A stretch of 64,000 bases of DNA from Ardenticatena maritima (GTDB lineage: Bacteria; Chloroflexota; Anaerolineae; Ardenticatenales; Ardenticatenaceae). The notes beneath the pieces were generated by a model, which had not been told where the DNA came from, ran no database searches, and worked only from the letters and a program-made list of their open reading frames with translations. The DNA lies in assembly GCF_001306175.1 (NCBI RefSeq), contig NZ_LGKN01000005.1:434001-498000 (forward strand), read 5' to 3'. Positions 2,952-30,449 of this stretch are shown piece by piece (within the stretch, counting starts at the first letter, position 1; each line of letters begins with the position of its first letter). Position numbers and translations under genes: made by a program.

Positions 2952-3045
2952 TTTCCCACACCTATGGGCGAGTTTTCCACACTTTTCCCACGTTATCCAC
3001 ATCAAAAACGGCAGTTTTCCACACTTGTCCACAGACTTTTCCACA
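2952..3045 (+). repeat. Phased array of DnaA-box-like 9-mers
   Basis: Seven same-orientation 9-mers related to TTATCCACA start at 2952 (TTTCCCACA), 2973 (TTTTCCACA), 2983 (TTTTCCCAC), 2993 (TTATCCACA, perfect), 3015 (TTTTCCACA), 3025 (TTGTCCACA) and 3037 (TTTTCCACA). Start-to-start spacings are 21, 10, 10, 22, 10 and 12 bp, close to whole helical turns. The array fills the gap between the MoxR and DUF58 genes. It resembles DnaA-binding arrays; the binding protein is inferred. Confidence 0.65.
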
Positions 3046-3070
3046 AGGCTTGTGTTGTACTGGAAACACC

Positions 3071-3086
3071 ACCACAAGATGTTGTG
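3071..3086. repeat. 16-nt element shared with the 17.1-kb region (copy 1)
   Basis: ACCACAAGATGTTGTG contains the inverted repeat CACAA-N4-TTGTG and recurs exactly, on the opposite strand, at 17104-17119. Both copies flank DnaA-box-like arrays. A related perfect palindrome CACAAG-G-CTTGTG lies at 3042-3054. Confidence 0.6.
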
Positions 3087-3093
3087 CACCATT

Positions 3094-14861: not shown

Positions 14862-16784
14862 ATGAACTTTTCACGCAATCCACGGTCGTACATTCTGTAT
14901 ATTTTGCTGTTCGGCGCATTCGGTCTGTTTGTGTACAGCATGTTGACATCTTCCGAACCAACCCAGGTTGTCGCGCTGAACACGGTTGCGCAAGCCGTCA
15001 TGGACGGCGAAGTACGCGAAATCCGCGTCAGCAACAACACCGCCACCATCATCACACGCCGCGGTGACCGCTATCGCGCCACGCTCGAACCCGACGCCGA
15101 CATCACAAAACTTCTGCGCGATTTTGGCGTGACGCCTGAACAGTTGAACCGCGTGGATATCATCTATGAGCCCCCCTCACAATGGGGCGCCTTGCTCAGT
15201 GTGCTGGGGTCTTTCCTGCCGCTTCTCCTGTTTGCCGGCTTCCTCTTCTTCATGCTGCGGCAAGCCCAAGGCTCGAACAATCAGGCGATGTCGTTTGGAA
15301 AAAGCCGCGCACGCATGTTCAGCGGCGACAAGCCCACAGTCACCTTTGACGACGTCGCCGGTGCGGACGAAGCCAAGGAAGAACTGAAAGAGGTCGTTGA
15401 GTTTCTGCGCGAACCCGAAAAATTCGTTTCGCTGGGCGCGCGTATTCCCAAAGGCGTGCTCATGGTCGGGCCGCCGGGAACCGGCAAAACGCTCATGGCG
15501 CGTGCCGTCGCCGGCGAAGCGGGTGTGCCTTTCTTCAGCATTTCGGGGAGTGAGTTTGTAGAAATGTTCGTAGGCGTCGGCGCGAGCCGCGTGCGCGACC
15601 TCTTCGAGCAGGCGAAGCGCAACAGTCCCTGCATCATTTTCATTGACGAGATTGACGCCGTCGGGCGGCATCGCGGCGCCGGCCTGGGCGGGAGCCATGA
15701 TGAACGCGAGCAGACGCTCAACCAGATTCTGGTGGAAATGGACGGCTTCGATACCGATACCAACGTCATCGTGATTGCCGCCACCAACCGCCCCGACATT
15801 CTCGACCCGGCGTTGCTGCGCCCTGGGCGGTTCGACCGCCGCGTCGTGCTCGACCGCCCCGACCTGCGTGGTCGCCGCGCCATTCTGGACGTGCACGTGC
15901 GCGGCAAACCGCTTGCCAAAGACGTAGACCTGGACGCTATCGCCCAACAAACGCCAGGCTTCACCGGCGCCGACCTGGAAAACCTGGTGAACGAAGCCGC
16001 TATTCTGGCGGCACGCCGCAACCGCCGCACCATTAGCATGGCGGAATTCCAGGAAGCCATCGAACGGGTGTTGGCGGGGCCGGAACGCAAGAGCCGCATC
16101 ATCAGCGAACACGAAAAGCGCGTCATCGCCTATCACGAAGCGGGGCATGCGGTTGTCATCTACCACCTGCCCAATTGCGACCCCGTGCACAAAATCAGCA
16201 TTGTTGCACGCGGCATGGCCGGCGGCTATGTGCTCAACCCGCCGGCGGAAGACCGCATGTTTATGCGCAAATCCAAATTCCTGGATGAAATGGCGGCGGC
16301 GCTGGGTGGACGCATCGCCGAAGAACTCGTTTTTGGCGATGTCACCACCGGCGCCAGCAACGACCTGGAAAAAGTCACTCACATGGCGCGCTCAATGGTG
16401 ACACGCTACGGCATGAGCGATGTACTGGGTCCGCTGACTTTTGGTGATACAGAGGAAATGGTGTTCCTGGGGCGTGAGATTGCCGAACAGCGCAATTACA
16501 GCGAAGAAGTGGCGCAGATGATCGACGAAGAAGTGCGTAAACTGGTCACGCACGCGTATGAGCGCGCTCGCCAAATTTTGATTGAACACCGCGACCAACT
16601 CGACCGCCTGGCGCAACGCCTTATGGAAGTTGAGACGATGAGCCGCGCGGAATTTGAAGCGCTGATGCGTGGCGAAGAACCACCCGCGCCATCAGCCCCC
16701 GCATCGAAACCGACAGCATCAACGCAAACCGACAGCGACAAAAAAGCGGGGGGGGATTTATCCCTGTCTCCTCTGCCGGCGTAA
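14862..16784 (+). CDS. ftsH: ATP-dependent zinc metalloprotease FtsH
   Basis: A 640-residue membrane AAA+ protease that degrades unassembled membrane proteins and short-lived regulators. Two membrane helices (about residues 10-27 and 108-128) flank the extracytoplasmic domain. The AAA module has Walker A GPPGTGKT (about 203), the pore motif [15 protein letters not shown], Walker [12 protein letters not shown] and the arginine-finger region RPGRFDRR. The protease has HEAGH near residue 426 with the third zinc ligand in the downstream [12 protein letters not shown] segment. A Ser/Pro/Thr-rich tail ends the protein. The length matches the family. GGTGG lies ten bases before the ATG, and a strong terminator follows. 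Confidence 0.97.
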
Positions 16785-16802
16785 TCAGACGGCAACCTTC
16801 AA

Positions 16803-16834
16803 GCGGGAGTCACACAGGACTCCCGCTTTTTTTA
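16803..16834 (+). terminator. Rho-independent terminator after ftsH
   Basis: The stem GCGGGAGT / ACTCCCGC with loop CACACAGG is followed by a run of seven T. It starts 18 bp after the ftsH stop. Confidence 0.92.
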
Positions 16835-17200
16835 TCTCCATTTCAAGGTTCGTTTATCAACGGATGTTGATATTTTTCCACATTTTTGTGGATAACTTTG
16901 GGATAGATGTGGAAAAGTGTGGGTAAATGGGGATAACTTTATGGTCAACTTCCCACAGGAGACCCGCATATTCCACGCTTCCAAACCGATACCACAAGAT
17001 ATAGGGGGTGGTGCTTGCAGGAATTGAATCAAGGTTTTGGCATCTCCCCACACTCTTCCACAAGAGAACGCCCTGTTATCCACATTGTCAAAAGGAATGT
17101 TTACACAACATCTTGTGGTATCCCGAAGGTACAACCACAACTACTACGGTGATGTGAAACACAGAAACGTGAGTTATACACTTATCCACGCCCCCTACTA
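16835..17200. other. Candidate replication-origin-like region: clustered DnaA-box-like 9-mers in a gene-free gap
   Basis: No gene lies between ftsH (16784) and tsaD (17366). Perfect TTATCCACA occurs at 16887-16895 (- strand) and 17076-17084 (+). Near matches are at 16874 (+ TTTTCCACA), 16908 (- TTTTCCACA), 16918 (- TTACCCACA), 16928 (- TTATCCCCA), 17044 (CTCCCCACA), 17054 (TCTTCCACA), 17174 (TTATACACT) and 17182 (TTATCCACG). The minus-strand set is spaced 21, 10 and 10 bp; the plus-strand set 10 and 22 bp. An AT-rich stretch (about 16827-16890) borders the first boxes. This looks like an oriC or DnaA-titration site, but dnaA is not in the window. From 17200 to 17365 I see only the tsaD leader. 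Confidence 0.55.
17104..17119. repeat. 16-nt element shared with the 3.07-kb region (copy 2, inverted)
   Basis: CACAACATCTTGTGGT is the exact reverse complement of 3071-3086. A further partial copy, GATACCACAAGAT, lies at 16988-17000; its 13 bases match the reverse complement of this copy with its flank. Confidence 0.6.
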
Positions 17201-17365
17201 CGTCTAAAAAACAAATAGACATGTTCTTTATGGGGATGAACGTGTGCACAAACCTGTTTGCAAAAAAACCTTGCCCTTTTACGTGAGTCTGGATATGCTA
17301 CCACCACAACAAGAACAGGCATCTTGTTGGCATGTGTGATACATTTCCCAAAAGTGAGGGCTGCT

Positions 17366-18430
17366 ATGTTGGTGCTTGGAATTGAAACGTCATGTGATGA
17401 AACATCCGTGGCTATCGTGCGCGATGGTCGCGATATCTTGTCAAACGTTGTTGCCTCGCAGATTGATTTGCATCGCCAGTATGGGGGCGTTTTTCCCGAA
17501 ATGGCGGCGCGGCAACACATTCTCTCTATCACGCCAGTGTTGCGCGAAGCGATGCAAAAAGCCGGCGTCACCTGGGATGCGATTGACGCCATCGCCGCAA
17601 CCTATGGTCCGGGTTTAGCCGGTTCGCTTGTAGTGGGCTTGAATTTTGCCAAGGCGCTGGCAATTGCGCGGGGGTTGCCCTTTATCGGCATCAACCATCT
17701 GGAAGGGCACATTTACAGCGCCTGGTTGCGTCTGCGCCCCGACCAGGACGCCCCTTTGCCGGAATTTCCCGCGCTGATTTTGATTGTCAGTGGCGGTCAC
17801 ACGGAATTGGTGCTCATGGAAGACCACGGCGTCTATCGTCTGCTGGGGCAAACCCAAGACGACGCCGCCGGCGAGGCGTTCGACAAGGTAGCGCGGTTGC
17901 TGGGGCTTCCGTATCCGGGTGGTCCGCACATTCAGCGTGCCGCAGAGCAAGGCAACCCCCGCCATTTTGAATTCCCCCGTGCGTGGTTGCCTGGCACCTA
18001 TGATTTCAGTTTCAGCGGCTTGAAAACGGCCGTCTTGCGCGAGGTGGAAAAGTACCGCAAGCCTGCGGCTTCATCAAAAAAGCAAGCGTCCTTTATGCCG
18101 GTGGTCACGCGTGAGTTGCCTGTTGCACACATTGCGGCGGGCTTTCAGCAAGCGGTGATTGATGTCTTGGTGGGGAAAGTCCTGCAAGCCGTGGAGCAAT
18201 ACGGCGTGCAGGTTGTGGTGATGGCCGGCGGGGTGGCTGCCAATCGTCCCTTGCGCGAGCAGATGCAAAAGGCGCTGGAGCGCCACAACGTCGCGTTGCA
18301 TGTGGCGCCCATAGCCCTTTGCACCGACAACGCCGCCATGATTGCCGGAGCGGCTTACTATCGGCTCGTCAGGGGTGAACGTTCGCCGCTTGACCTTGAC
18401 GTAGACCCAAACGCCCCCCTTGCCCTTTGA
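17366..18430 (+). CDS. tsaD: tRNA N6-adenosine threonylcarbamoyltransferase
   Basis: A 354-residue ASKHA-fold protein that, with TsaB and TsaE, transfers the threonylcarbamoyl group to A37 of ANN-decoding tRNAs. It starts MLVLGIETSCDETSVAIV. The iron-binding HxxxH is in NHLEGHIYSAW (about residue 111), ISGGHTELVLM-like SGGHTE is near 137, and MAGGVAANRPLREQM is near 289. The frame extends upstream to 17258, but the family always starts at MLVLGIETSCDET, and GAGGG lies before ATG 17366. It is transcribed away from the candidate origin region. Confidence 0.96.
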   Translation: MLVLGIETSCDETSVAIVRDGRDILSNVVASQIDLHRQYGGVFPEMAARQHILSITPVLREAMQKAGVTWDAIDAIAATYGPGLAGSLVVGLNFAKALAIARGLPFIGINHLEGHIYSAWLRLRPDQDAPLPEFPALILIVSGGHTELVLMEDHGVYRLLGQTQDDAAGEAFDKVARLLGLPYPGGPHIQRAAEQGNPRHFEFPRAWLPGTYDFSFSGLKTAVLREVEKYRKPAASSKKQASFMPVVTRELPVAHIAAGFQQAVIDVLVGKVLQAVEQYGVQVVVMAGGVAANRPLREQMQKALERHNVALHVAPIALCTDNAAMIAGAAYYRLVRGERSPLDLDVDPNAPLAL

Positions 18431-19160: not shown

Positions 19161-19189
19161 TGTGGATAACTCTTGTGAAGTGTGGATAA
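19161..19189 (-). repeat. Pair of perfect TTATCCACA 9-mers upstream of rpiA
   Basis: TGTGGATAA occurs at 19161-19169 and 19181-19189, two helical turns (20 bp) apart and in the same orientation. They lie 32-60 bp upstream of the rpiA start in the 235-bp divergent gap. Two consensus 9-mers this close are unlikely by chance, so regulation by DnaA or a protein with the same specificity is plausible. Confidence 0.55.
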
Positions 19190-27598: not shown

Positions 27599-29311
27599 AT
27601 GCAGCAAGAAGCGCAAAAAAGAGGTCGAATTACTTTATTAAAAGTATCGTGTCATTTGCTATGGGGTATCCCCTTGGGATATTTGTTGCTTTTTTATTTT
27701 TATCCGCTCTGGGCGATTTTCCAAACCAGCCTGTTTCCCGAAGGACGTTTCATTGCGGCAGGCGTGATAGCGCTCTTTTCGCGCCCGTACATATGGCGCG
27801 TTCTCTGGTTCACGGTTTGGCAGGCGGCGCTTTCCACCGGCTTGACCTTGTTGGTGGGGATGCCTGTTGCCTATGTGTTGGCGCGGTATCGTTTGCCGGG
27901 CAAAGCGTTATGGCGCGCCCTTTTGACCGTTGCGTTTGTGATGCCGACCGTCGTCGTCGCAACGGCTTTTGCAGCCTTGCTGGGGCCTTCGGGGTGGCTC
28001 AACCTCATATTGATGCGCCTTTTAGGGGTGGATACACCACCGCTGGTGCTGACAGGCACCATTTGGGCGATTTTGCTGGCGCATGTCTTCTACAACATTT
28101 CTGTTGTTGTGCGCCTTGTAGGGGGCGTTTGGGGGAATTTGGATGTTCAACTCGAACAGGCGGCGACCGTATTGGGTGCATCACCCTGGCGCGTTTTTCG
28201 TGAGATTACCTTGCCGCTCTTGCTCCCGGCGGTGGGGGCGGCGGCGTTGCTTGTTTTCCTCTTCTGCTTTACCAGCTTTGGCATTGTGCTGATTCTGGGC
28301 GGCGCGCGCTACGCGACGCTCGAAGTCGAAATTTACCGTCAGACAATTAGTTTTTTCAACTTACCTTTGGCCGCGACGTTGTCATTACTTCAAATTGCCT
28401 GCACCTTCGTCGTCATGGTGGCTTATACGCGCCTGCAACAACGCGCCAGTGTCCCGCTCCGCTTGCGCCGTGCGGCTGCTGTGGAACGCCCGTTGCGCGG
28501 GCGACGGGCGTGGCTCGTCTGGGTGTTTTTGGCGGCGGTGTTAGCGTTCGAGGTAGCGCCCTTGTTGTTGCTGGCGGTGCGCAGTTTGACGCTGGGCGGG
28601 GAGTTGACGCTTGAATTTTATCGCGCATTGAATACCAACCCAACACGCTCAGTGTTTCACGTGAAACCTTTGGTGGCGGTGCGCAACTCAGTGCTCTTTG
28701 CACTGGCGACCATGACGCTGAGCTTGGTGATTGGAACGCTCAGCGCCTACTTCCTTGTACCGGGGCAACGTGCGCGGCGCAGCGATTGGTTGCGGCGTCT
28801 TTTCGACCCGCTCATCCTCTTGCCCTTGGGTACCAGCGCCGTGACGTTGGGCTTTGGCTTTGTGATCGCCCTAGATGAACCGCCGCTCAATTTGCGTACC
28901 AGCCCGCTCCTGATTCCCATTGCGCACTCCCTGGTGGCGTTTCCGTTTGTTGTGCGTACGATTTTGCCCGTTTTGCGTGGCATTGACCCCCGCTTGCGTG
29001 AAGCCGCCGCCATTTTGGGCGCATCGCCCTGGCGCGTCTGGCGTGAAGTGGATGTGCCTATCGTCAGCCGGGCGTTGCTGGTGGGAGCGGTTTTTGCTTT
29101 TGCCATCTCCATGGGTGAATTCGGCGCGACGGCGCTGGTGGCGCGCCCTGAATACCCAACCATGCCTGTGGTCATTTATCGGTTTTTAGGGCAACCCGGC
29201 CAACGCAATTATGGTCAGGCATTGGCCATGAGCACCTTGTTGATGTTGGTCACAGCAACCGGTTTTCTCATTATCGAGCGCTTCCGGTATCGTGATATTG
29301 GTGAGTTTTGA
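27599..29311 (+). CDS. Double-domain ABC permease, Fe(III)/thiamine (FbpB/ThiP) type
   Basis: A 570-residue protein made of two fused permease halves, each with about six helices. Each half has an EAA-type coupling motif: EQAATVLGASPWRVFREITLPLL (about residue 185) and EAAAILGASPWRVWREVDVPIV (about 475). This duplicated form is usual for ferric-ion and thiamine importers. AAGGAG lies eight bases before ATG 27599; the frame opens earlier at 27569. The next gene, 25 bp on, encodes the ATPase, but no matching binding protein is present. The coding sequence contains a parS-like site at 28653-28668. The first 40 codons are more AT-rich than the rest. Confidence 0.9.
   Translation: MQQEAQKRGRITLLKVSCHLLWGIPLGYLLLFYFYPLWAIFQTSLFPEGRFIAAGVIALFSRPYIWRVLWFTVWQAALSTGLTLLVGMPVAYVLARYRLPGKALWRALLTVAFVMPTVVVATAFAALLGPSGWLNLILMRLLGVDTPPLVLTGTIWAILLAHVFYNISVVVRLVGGVWGNLDVQLEQAATVLGASPWRVFREITLPLLLPAVGAAALLVFLFCFTSFGIVLILGGARYATLEVEIYRQTISFFNLPLAATLSLLQIACTFVVMVAYTRLQQRASVPLRLRRAAAVERPLRGRRAWLVWVFLAAVLAFEVAPLLLLAVRSLTLGGELTLEFYRALNTNPTRSVFHVKPLVAVRNSVLFALATMTLSLVIGTLSAYFLVPGQRARRSDWLRRLFDPLILLPLGTSAVTLGFGFVIALDEPPLNLRTSPLLIPIAHSLVAFPFVVRTILPVLRGIDPRLREAAAILGASPWRVWREVDVPIVSRALLVGAVFAFAISMGEFGATALVARPEYPTMPVVIYRFLGQPGQRNYGQALAMSTLLMLVTATGFLIIERFRYRDIGEF
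28653..28668. other. parS-type centromere site (15/16), inside the permease gene
   Basis: TGTTTCACGTGAAACC differs from the Bacillus-type parS consensus TGTTNCACGTGAAACA only in the last base, and its 14-bp core GTTTCACGTGAAAC is a perfect palindrome. It is read through as codons for VFHVKP, so the site coexists with protein coding. ParB proteins of most bacteria recognise this sequence. Confidence 0.8.
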
Positions 29312-29335: not shown

Positions 29336-30433
29336 ATGCCAATTGTGGATAACTCATTGCTGTTTGTGGAAAACATATACAAGTCTTTTGATAACCAACC
29401 GGTTTTGCGCGATATAACTTTTGGCGCGGCTCAAGGGGCGATTGTGGCCTTGTTGGGACCGAGTGGGAGCGGAAAAAGCACGTTGCTGCGCTGCATCGCC
29501 GGTCTGGAACACCCTGATCGCGGGGCGATTTGGTTTGCCGGTGAGCGTATTGATACGGTACCACCGCATGCACGCGGCTTTGGCTTGATGTTTCAGCAAT
29601 ACGCTCTTTTTCCCCACCGCACCGTGGCTGAAAATGTGGCGTTTGGCTTGCGTATGCAGGGGTGGCCGCGCGAGCGCATTCGCCGTCGCGTGGCGGAAAT
29701 GCTGGCGTTGGTGGGGTTGGAGGGGTATGAAGACCGCGATGTGCTGGATCTGAGCGGCGGCGAACAACAGCGCGTGGCGCTGGCGCGGAGCCTTGCGCCG
29801 CAACCTCGATTGCTCATGCTGGATGAACCGCTTGGCGCGCTCGACCGTGCTTTGCGCGACCGCTTGCTGGATGAGGTGCGCGGCATTTTGAAGCATGTTG
29901 GCGTCACGGCGCTCTATGTGACCCACGACCAGCAAGAGGCCTTTGCCGTCAGCGATTGGCTTGTTTTGTTGCATGAGGGCCGCATTGTTCAGCAAGGTGT
30001 GCCCGAGGCGGTCTATCGCCGTCCGAATAGCCCTTTTGCGGCGCAATTTTTTGGGGTTGAGAATCTCATCAACGTGGTGCGATATGGCACACGCTCGGCG
30101 AATATGGTGGAAGTCGAAACAGCATTGGGGCGCTTGCTGGTGGAGTGGCCTGCTGAGATGACCATGCCGCCGCTACCGGTACGGCTGGCGATTCGCCCCG
30201 AAGCTGCGCATGTGGCTGAACATCCGGAGACAGGCGTCAATATCGTTCGCGGCGAGGTTGTGGAACGCTCGTTCCGGGGGCCATTCTTTCATGTGCGTGT
30301 GCAACACACCAGCGGCGCTTTGCTCGTGTTCGATATCACCACCACGGGCACGGATATTCCCGCGGTTGGTGCGCCCATCACTTTGCGGGTGCGCCCTGAT
30401 GGCATGTGGCTGGTGCCGGTTCAGCAAGCGTGA
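29336..30433 (+). CDS. ABC transporter ATPase, Fe(III)/thiamine/polyamine (FbpC/PotA) type
   Basis: A 365-residue ATPase with Walker A GPSGSGKST (about residue 42), FGLMFQQYALFPHRTVAENVAFGL (Q-loop region), signature LSGGEQQRVALARSL (about 140), Walker B LMLDEPLGALD and H-loop THDQQEA. A C-terminal TOBE-type domain (about 240-365) fits CUT1/FbpC-class importers. GGAGAG lies ten bases before the ATG. It is the partner of the preceding double permease. The stop codon's last base is also the first base of the 18-bp palindrome containing the perfect parS site. Confidence 0.93.
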   Translation: MPIVDNSLLFVENIYKSFDNQPVLRDITFGAAQGAIVALLGPSGSGKSTLLRCIAGLEHPDRGAIWFAGERIDTVPPHARGFGLMFQQYALFPHRTVAENVAFGLRMQGWPRERIRRRVAEMLALVGLEGYEDRDVLDLSGGEQQRVALARSLAPQPRLLMLDEPLGALDRALRDRLLDEVRGILKHVGVTALYVTHDQQEAFAVSDWLVLLHEGRIVQQGVPEAVYRRPNSPFAAQFFGVENLINVVRYGTRSANMVEVETALGRLLVEWPAEMTMPPLPVRLAIRPEAAHVAEHPETGVNIVRGEVVERSFRGPFFHVRVQHTSGALLVFDITTTGTDIPAVGAPITLRVRPDGMWLVPVQQA

Positions 30434-30449
30434 TGTTTCACGTGAAACA
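30434..30449. other. parS centromere site, perfect 16/16 match
   Basis: TGTTTCACGTGAAACA fits the ParB-binding consensus TGTTNCACGTGAAACA at every base and extends to an 18-bp perfect palindrome (30433-30450). It lies in the 49-bp gap between two convergent genes, 1.78 kb from the second site at 28653. parS sites usually cluster near the replication origin and nucleate ParB spreading and SMC loading. Confidence 0.9.

Follow-up and report, generated by a model that had tools for sequence, protein, structure and literature searches.

Where does replication begin on the chromosome of Ardenticatena maritima, a heat-loving member of the phylum Chloroflexota? The genome is a 3.56-Mb draft in 12 contigs, and the window considered here, the whole 64-kb stretch of DNA that was analysed (G000:C5:434001-498000), contains a gap between two plus-strand genes, ftsH (14862–16784; Pfam M41 peptidase and AAA domains) and tsaD (17366–18430; Pfam PF00814), that an earlier note had read as either a replication origin or a DnaA-titrating locus. 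The gap, at 450.8–451.4 kb on contig C5, is free of genes, as that note had it. A terminator-like hairpin with a T-run follows ftsH on the plus strand (16801–16832; AAGCGGGAGTC-ACACAG-GACTCCCGCTTTTTTT), and an Rfam search of the 64-kb window gave no matches. Contig C5 (700 kb) was read nearly whole, whereas from the other contigs 20-kb stretches were taken; the scans for box clusters and for the unwinding module covered 1.66 Mb.

The most obvious feature of the gap is its density of DnaA boxes. Within the 366 bp from 16835 to 17200 there are two perfect copies of TTATCCACA, seven boxes with at most one mismatch and 11 with at most two, compared with means of 0.007, 0.18 and 1.8, respectively, when this sequence is shuffled with its dinucleotides preserved. 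Each of the three observed counts was reached in none of 2000 shuffles, which bears out the earlier report of two perfect boxes accompanied by many near matches. The left array comprises four minus-strand boxes (16887–16936), beginning at 16887 (perfect), 16908, 16918 and 16928 (TTATCCCCA), with precisely the 21-10-10 spacing that had been described. It is preceded by a plus-strand box with one mismatch, TTTTCCACA, at 16874–16882. On the right, all on the plus strand, a box TCTTCCACA at 17054 lies 22 bp upstream of the second perfect box, TTATCCACA at 17076–17084, and two overlapping boxes 8 bp apart, TTATACACT (17174, two mismatches) and TTATCCACG (17182, one mismatch), form a tandem at 17174–17190. 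The right-hand spacing had been given as 10-22; the 22-bp step stands, but the 10-bp step is absent at two mismatches or fewer. Clusters of at least three boxes per 200 bp occur only three times in the 1.66 Mb scanned, two of them inside the window.

Smaller groups of boxes are found elsewhere. Two perfect boxes, 20 bp apart on the minus strand (19161–19189), are located immediately upstream of rpiA, with a similar pair in G001, and the first part of an ABC-transporter ATPase gene, which is flanked by the two parS sites, contains two boxes at 29344–29373. A further site on contig C4, about 73 kb from dnaA, has four plus-strand boxes in 73 bp (L226 6095-6167; G000:C4:426095-426167), placed between two genes resembling leuB and leuD homologues.

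Nucleotide skew and the partition sites point to the same place. The combined GC minus AT skew of C5 places its change-point on the gap (451 kb), although the bootstrap 95% interval is broad (411–486 kb); GC skew alone gives 435 kb and AT skew alone 460 kb, and the cumulative GC skew of the contig has a broad minimum over 435–451 kb. The earlier note had proposed the skew as a check, a minimum far from 17 kb being evidence against an origin; the combined change-point instead coincides with the gap, and the skew passes from negative to positive around it, in the direction suggested by the earlier hand reading, in which the right side had looked richer in G. Among the sampled contigs C5 is the only one with a lasting minus-to-plus switch. 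C3 has one plus-to-minus switch, at about 690 kb, which is terminus-like, and C4, C6 and C9 have mostly negative skew throughout. The only two parS sites of the genome (at most two mismatches) are both in the 64-kb window, on the plus strand at 28653–28668 (one mismatch) and 30434–30449 (perfect), 11.5–13.3 kb from the gap and thus at the distance of about 12 kb previously noted. The parB gene is also on C5, 55 kb away.

Adjacency to dnaA is common among bacterial origins of the DnaA type, though it is not required. In A. maritima dnaA is on a separate contig (C4:499453), so that an origin in the gap is not dnaA-adjacent. An origin beside dnaA, the other outcome that would have told against the gap, was considered and rejected: no DnaA-box cluster is found within C4:480–520 kb, and the sampled stretches of C4 have no lasting skew switch at dnaA.

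How would such an origin open? The rule for a basal unwinding system (BUS) places one or more DnaA boxes, often in tandem, at most 16 bp from a run of DnaA-trios (PMC8287927). Such a run is expected to comprise three or more consecutive trios of the form 3'-NAN-5'. In the gap the tandem boxes at 17174 and 17182 are followed by a 4-bp GC spacer, CCCC (17191–17194, plus strand), and by trios from 17195, the tract reading CTA CTA CGT CTA (CTACTACGTCTA; 17195–17206, plus strand; complement 3'-GAT GAT GCA GAT-5'). Three of its four trios fit 3'-NAN-5', only two of them consecutively before an interruption, and a comparable interruption recurs in other Anaerolineae origins (CTACTACGACTACTA). The combination of a box with at most one mismatch and, 0–7 nt after it, CTAYTA is unique to the gap in the 1.66 Mb, and the trio tract is retained in four relatives. 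By the stability of 50-bp stretches, the DNA at 17195–17244 (64% AT) is a candidate unwinding element; it ranks third for low stability in the A. maritima window, and in each of the four relatives the region's least stable stretch begins at most 13 bp from the trio. The unwinding element is thus most likely the right-hand trio module (17174–17206) together with the AT-rich DNA beyond it, with opening predicted to proceed rightwards. The AT-rich flank on the left, to which attention had been drawn earlier, does exist (16827–16890, 70% AT), but we reject it as the unwinding element: its AT-rich start is the T-run of the terminator-like hairpin after ftsH, and the relatives are least stable at the right-hand trio.

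The gap can be aligned in four relatives (G001, G003, G004 and G005; TsaD identity 71–93%, with the nearest named relative, Ardenticatena sp. S012_161, at 93%), and all four keep the array, the trio module and two palindromes that are discussed below. Beyond the family, the pattern of three minus-strand DnaA boxes 21 and 20 bp apart was searched for in 298 Anaerolineae genomes and was found in 80 of them, representing 63 of 186 genera, compared with none for the reversed control. Among the 76 such loci read, 46 are directly 3' of dnaA and 25 have a BUS at +238 to +369 bp from the array. The origins downstream of dnaA (L257-L333) thus share with the gap both the three-box minus-strand array with 21/20 spacing and a plus-strand BUS some 300 bp further on, and some also carry pairs of NrdR boxes; they differ in that their array directly follows dnaA, which in Ardenticatenaceae is elsewhere. 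Since the combination of array and BUS is usually dnaA-adjacent in Anaerolineae, the gap is best read, from this shared architecture, as the form that a class-wide origin takes in the Ardenticatenaceae, where it has been separated from dnaA. Apart from the sister Ardenticatena, the other named tsaD loci have no DnaA-box cluster, so that origins elsewhere were located by architecture and not by neighbouring genes. An origin architecture is now given for the Ardenticatenaceae, and the three-box array plus BUS provides a class-wide signature by which oriC can be located in draft genomes of Anaerolineae, even where it is separated from dnaA.

Two variations on the array were also seen. Its third box is, across the class, very often the variant TTATCCCCA (TGGGGATAA), which is kept across families, and the origins of family f43 (L259, L261-L266) have two three-box arrays in succession, about 160–600 bp apart.

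Box statistics, skew change-point, parS sites, BUS and conservation in relatives all support the origin reading, and we conclude that the ftsH–tsaD gap is almost certainly the chromosomal oriC of A. maritima, extending over 16840–17260. The second DnaA-box cluster of the window deserves comparison, however. It comprises five plus-strand boxes (2973–3045) and an NrdR-like box (3072–3087), the whole spanning 2973–3087; its neighbours are moxR and a DUF58 gene, and the proposed oriC is 14 kb away. Could the gap serve only to titrate DnaA or to regulate, as do datA and the DnaA-box clusters of B. subtilis, while replication starts at a site such as 2973–3045? That cluster does have five boxes, the minimum given by GC skew alone (435 kb) is 2 kb from it, and it is kept in the sister species G001, with its NrdR site, and in G002, which has six boxes. 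Against this, it is without a DnaA-trio module and is not found in G003–G005; three genomes of genus g3 lack it while retaining the ftsH–tsaD array, and the combined skew indicates the gap. Pure DnaA titration, the alternative offered in the earlier note, is made unlikely by the array-to-trio architecture that the gap shares with dnaA-adjacent Anaerolineae origins, and we consider it very improbable that the true origin lies elsewhere.

A different relationship between the two sites would be an extended or bipartite origin, in which unwinding takes place at the gap and the cluster 14 kb away is a helper site of the genus. The presence at both of DnaA boxes and an NrdR-like box, and the fact that skew does not separate them, are consistent with such an arrangement, but the cluster is missing from genus g3, and known bipartite origins span about one gene rather than 14 kb. 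We think this doubtful, if less so than titration.

What, then, are the two conserved palindromes that lie between the left array and the BUS? The NrdR-box consensus is a 16-bp palindrome, acaCwAtATaTwGtg (PMC4009431), and NrdR prefers a spacer of 15–16 bp between its 16-bp boxes, equivalent to 31 or 32 bp from start to start (PMC12051234). In each of the five Ardenticatenaceae genomes in which nrdR was found (5/5), the nrdR promoter carries a pair of boxes with a spacing of exactly 32 bp. A matrix trained solely on boxes of nrdR promoters was used to scan 697,985 positions of C5. The two highest-ranking positions are both in the gap: box R, ACACAACATCTTGTGG at 17103–17118, is first and box L, CCACAAGATATAGGGG at 16992–17007, second. 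The third, at 3072, is in the second DnaA-box cluster. In each of the four relatives, for which 9.5–20 kb was read, the top two sites likewise fall in the gap. Their placement is also constant. Measured from where the left array starts, box L is 105–108 bp away in five genomes (105 bp in A. maritima), and box R is 90–92 bp before the first trio (92 bp in A. maritima), whereas the distance from R to the tsaD start varies across genomes, from 164 to 263 bp. A pattern search for NrdR-like sites genome-wide gave 11 matches compared with nine for its reversed control; raw counts were for that reason rejected as evidence, which rests instead on position, conservation and pair spacing.

In A. maritima itself the distance between L and R is 111 bp, and a strong pair at 31 or 32 bp, of the kind present in relatives and in other families, is absent. 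The possible partner that R has 32 bp further on (CCACAACTACTACGGT, 17135–17150) is weak, with a matrix score of only 2.9, and the elements of the A. maritima gap, taken alone, are therefore termed NrdR-like boxes and not a canonical NrdR site. Nor was the +32-bp position accepted as a complete NrdR box for the Ardenticatenaceae generally, as in relatives it either scores about 7 or reads TACAAT, resembling a –10 element.

That resemblance raises the question of whether this might be an ordinary oriC on which NrdR does not act, the palindromes being operators or elements of a promoter from which transcription would cross the origin into tsaD, or sites for some factor of similar specificity. 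Box R could be an ordinary operator, since it overlaps a possible sigma-70 promoter, the alignment for genus g3 placing a –35-like TTGTNG over R with TACAAT 17 bp further on; the weakness of the partner of R in A. maritima also speaks for this. Box L, however, has no such promoter, and R keeps its distance from the trio (90–92 bp) and not from the tsaD start (164–263 bp). Moreover, the matrix that picks out these boxes was derived solely from nrdR promoters, and strong 31/32-bp pairs occur in other families where the flanking genes converge. We regard such an ordinary oriC as unlikely, although the least unlikely of the alternatives. That the gap is oriC and that its palindromes are real NrdR sites is, taken jointly and judged from sequence comparison, probable.

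The pairs in other families are best seen in the origin regions of 70 other Anaerolineae. Strong sites (score at least 13) number 11 in these regions, compared with 0.37 expected from shuffles. When both boxes must score at least 8, there are three pairs at 31 bp and five at 32 bp and none at any other spacing from 17 to 60 bp; at a threshold of 5 the numbers are 13 and nine, with at most four at any other spacing. Not all of the positive loci are independent, since two families (f37 and f43) account for several of them, and many Anaerolineae origins have no NrdR box. In two origins (L321 and L323) the 31/32-bp pairs are located between dnaA and an opposite-strand DUF2905 gene that faces it; because the two genes are convergent, no flanking-gene promoter accounts for these pairs. 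A shorter, 13-bp palindrome-like motif, CTACAAWTTGTRG, occurs in some dnaA-adjacent origins (L246, L247); its half-site is that of NrdR, with a centre 3 bp shorter. A literature search found no paper evidently describing NrdR sites in a replication origin, and a search on Chloroflexi oriC and DnaA boxes found nothing evidently on these origins. The pairs of NrdR boxes in origins therefore seem to be new, and NrdR boxes within oriC appear to be unreported before.

A possible sequence of events can be outlined. DnaA would bind the left minus-strand array (16887–16936) and the tandem boxes at 17174 and 17182, and from the latter DnaA-ATP would spread along the trios at 17195–17206 and open the DNA rightwards, as in the B. 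subtilis BUS. NrdR carrying ATP and dATP would bind between these two DnaA platforms and either kink the intervening DNA or occlude the platforms, in both cases making initiation dependent on the dNTP pool. For DNA binding NrdR requires dATP together with ATP or ADP, and it kinks the DNA sharply (PMC12176259); it is because of this need for dATP and this sharp bending that we favour an IHF-like, architectural role for NrdR at oriC, although it might either help initiation or block it. The full proposal, that in Anaerolineae NrdR acts at oriC as a dATP-dependent DNA-bending factor, bound between the box array and the trio module, and so couples initiation to the nucleotide pool, is one for which we judge the case evenly balanced.

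The known links between dNTP supply and the initiation of replication are mainly through DnaA control of nrd transcription, and NrdR sites in an origin would bear on the general problem of how bacteria match the one to the other. If the proposal is true, NrdR sites inside oriC would make a dNTP sensor that also controls ribonucleotide reductase a direct regulator of initiation.

As an origin with a BUS, the gap belongs to an already known kind. With the BUS origins of B. subtilis and C. difficile it shares tandem DnaA boxes, a short GC spacer and a trio tract that begins CTACTA (PMC6669920, PMC8287927, PMC7561715), as well as less stable DNA past the trios and a further box array upstream. It differs from them in being located between ftsH and tsaD, away from dnaA, in having a short and interrupted trio tract (GAT GAT GCA GAT), and in having NrdR-like boxes that separate the array from the BUS.

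The palindromes themselves have their counterpart in the NrdR operators of ribonucleotide reductase operons, which are 16-bp palindromes of the same acaCwAtATaTwGtg type (PMC12051234, PMC12176259, PMC4009431). They have the same motif as the box pair of the A. maritima nrdR promoter, and relatives have the 31/32-bp pairs. In contrast to the nrd operators, however, the boxes of the gap are inside a replication origin and not an nrd promoter, and the strong ones are 111 bp apart.

The arrangement as a whole recalls E. coli oriC, in which sites for IHF and Fis lie between groups of DnaA boxes. Both origins would thus have sites for DNA-bending factors amid their DnaA-box groups, although the analogy is one of function only: the sequences are unrelated, and the factor proposed for the gap, unlike those of E. 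coli oriC, would sense dATP and ATP.
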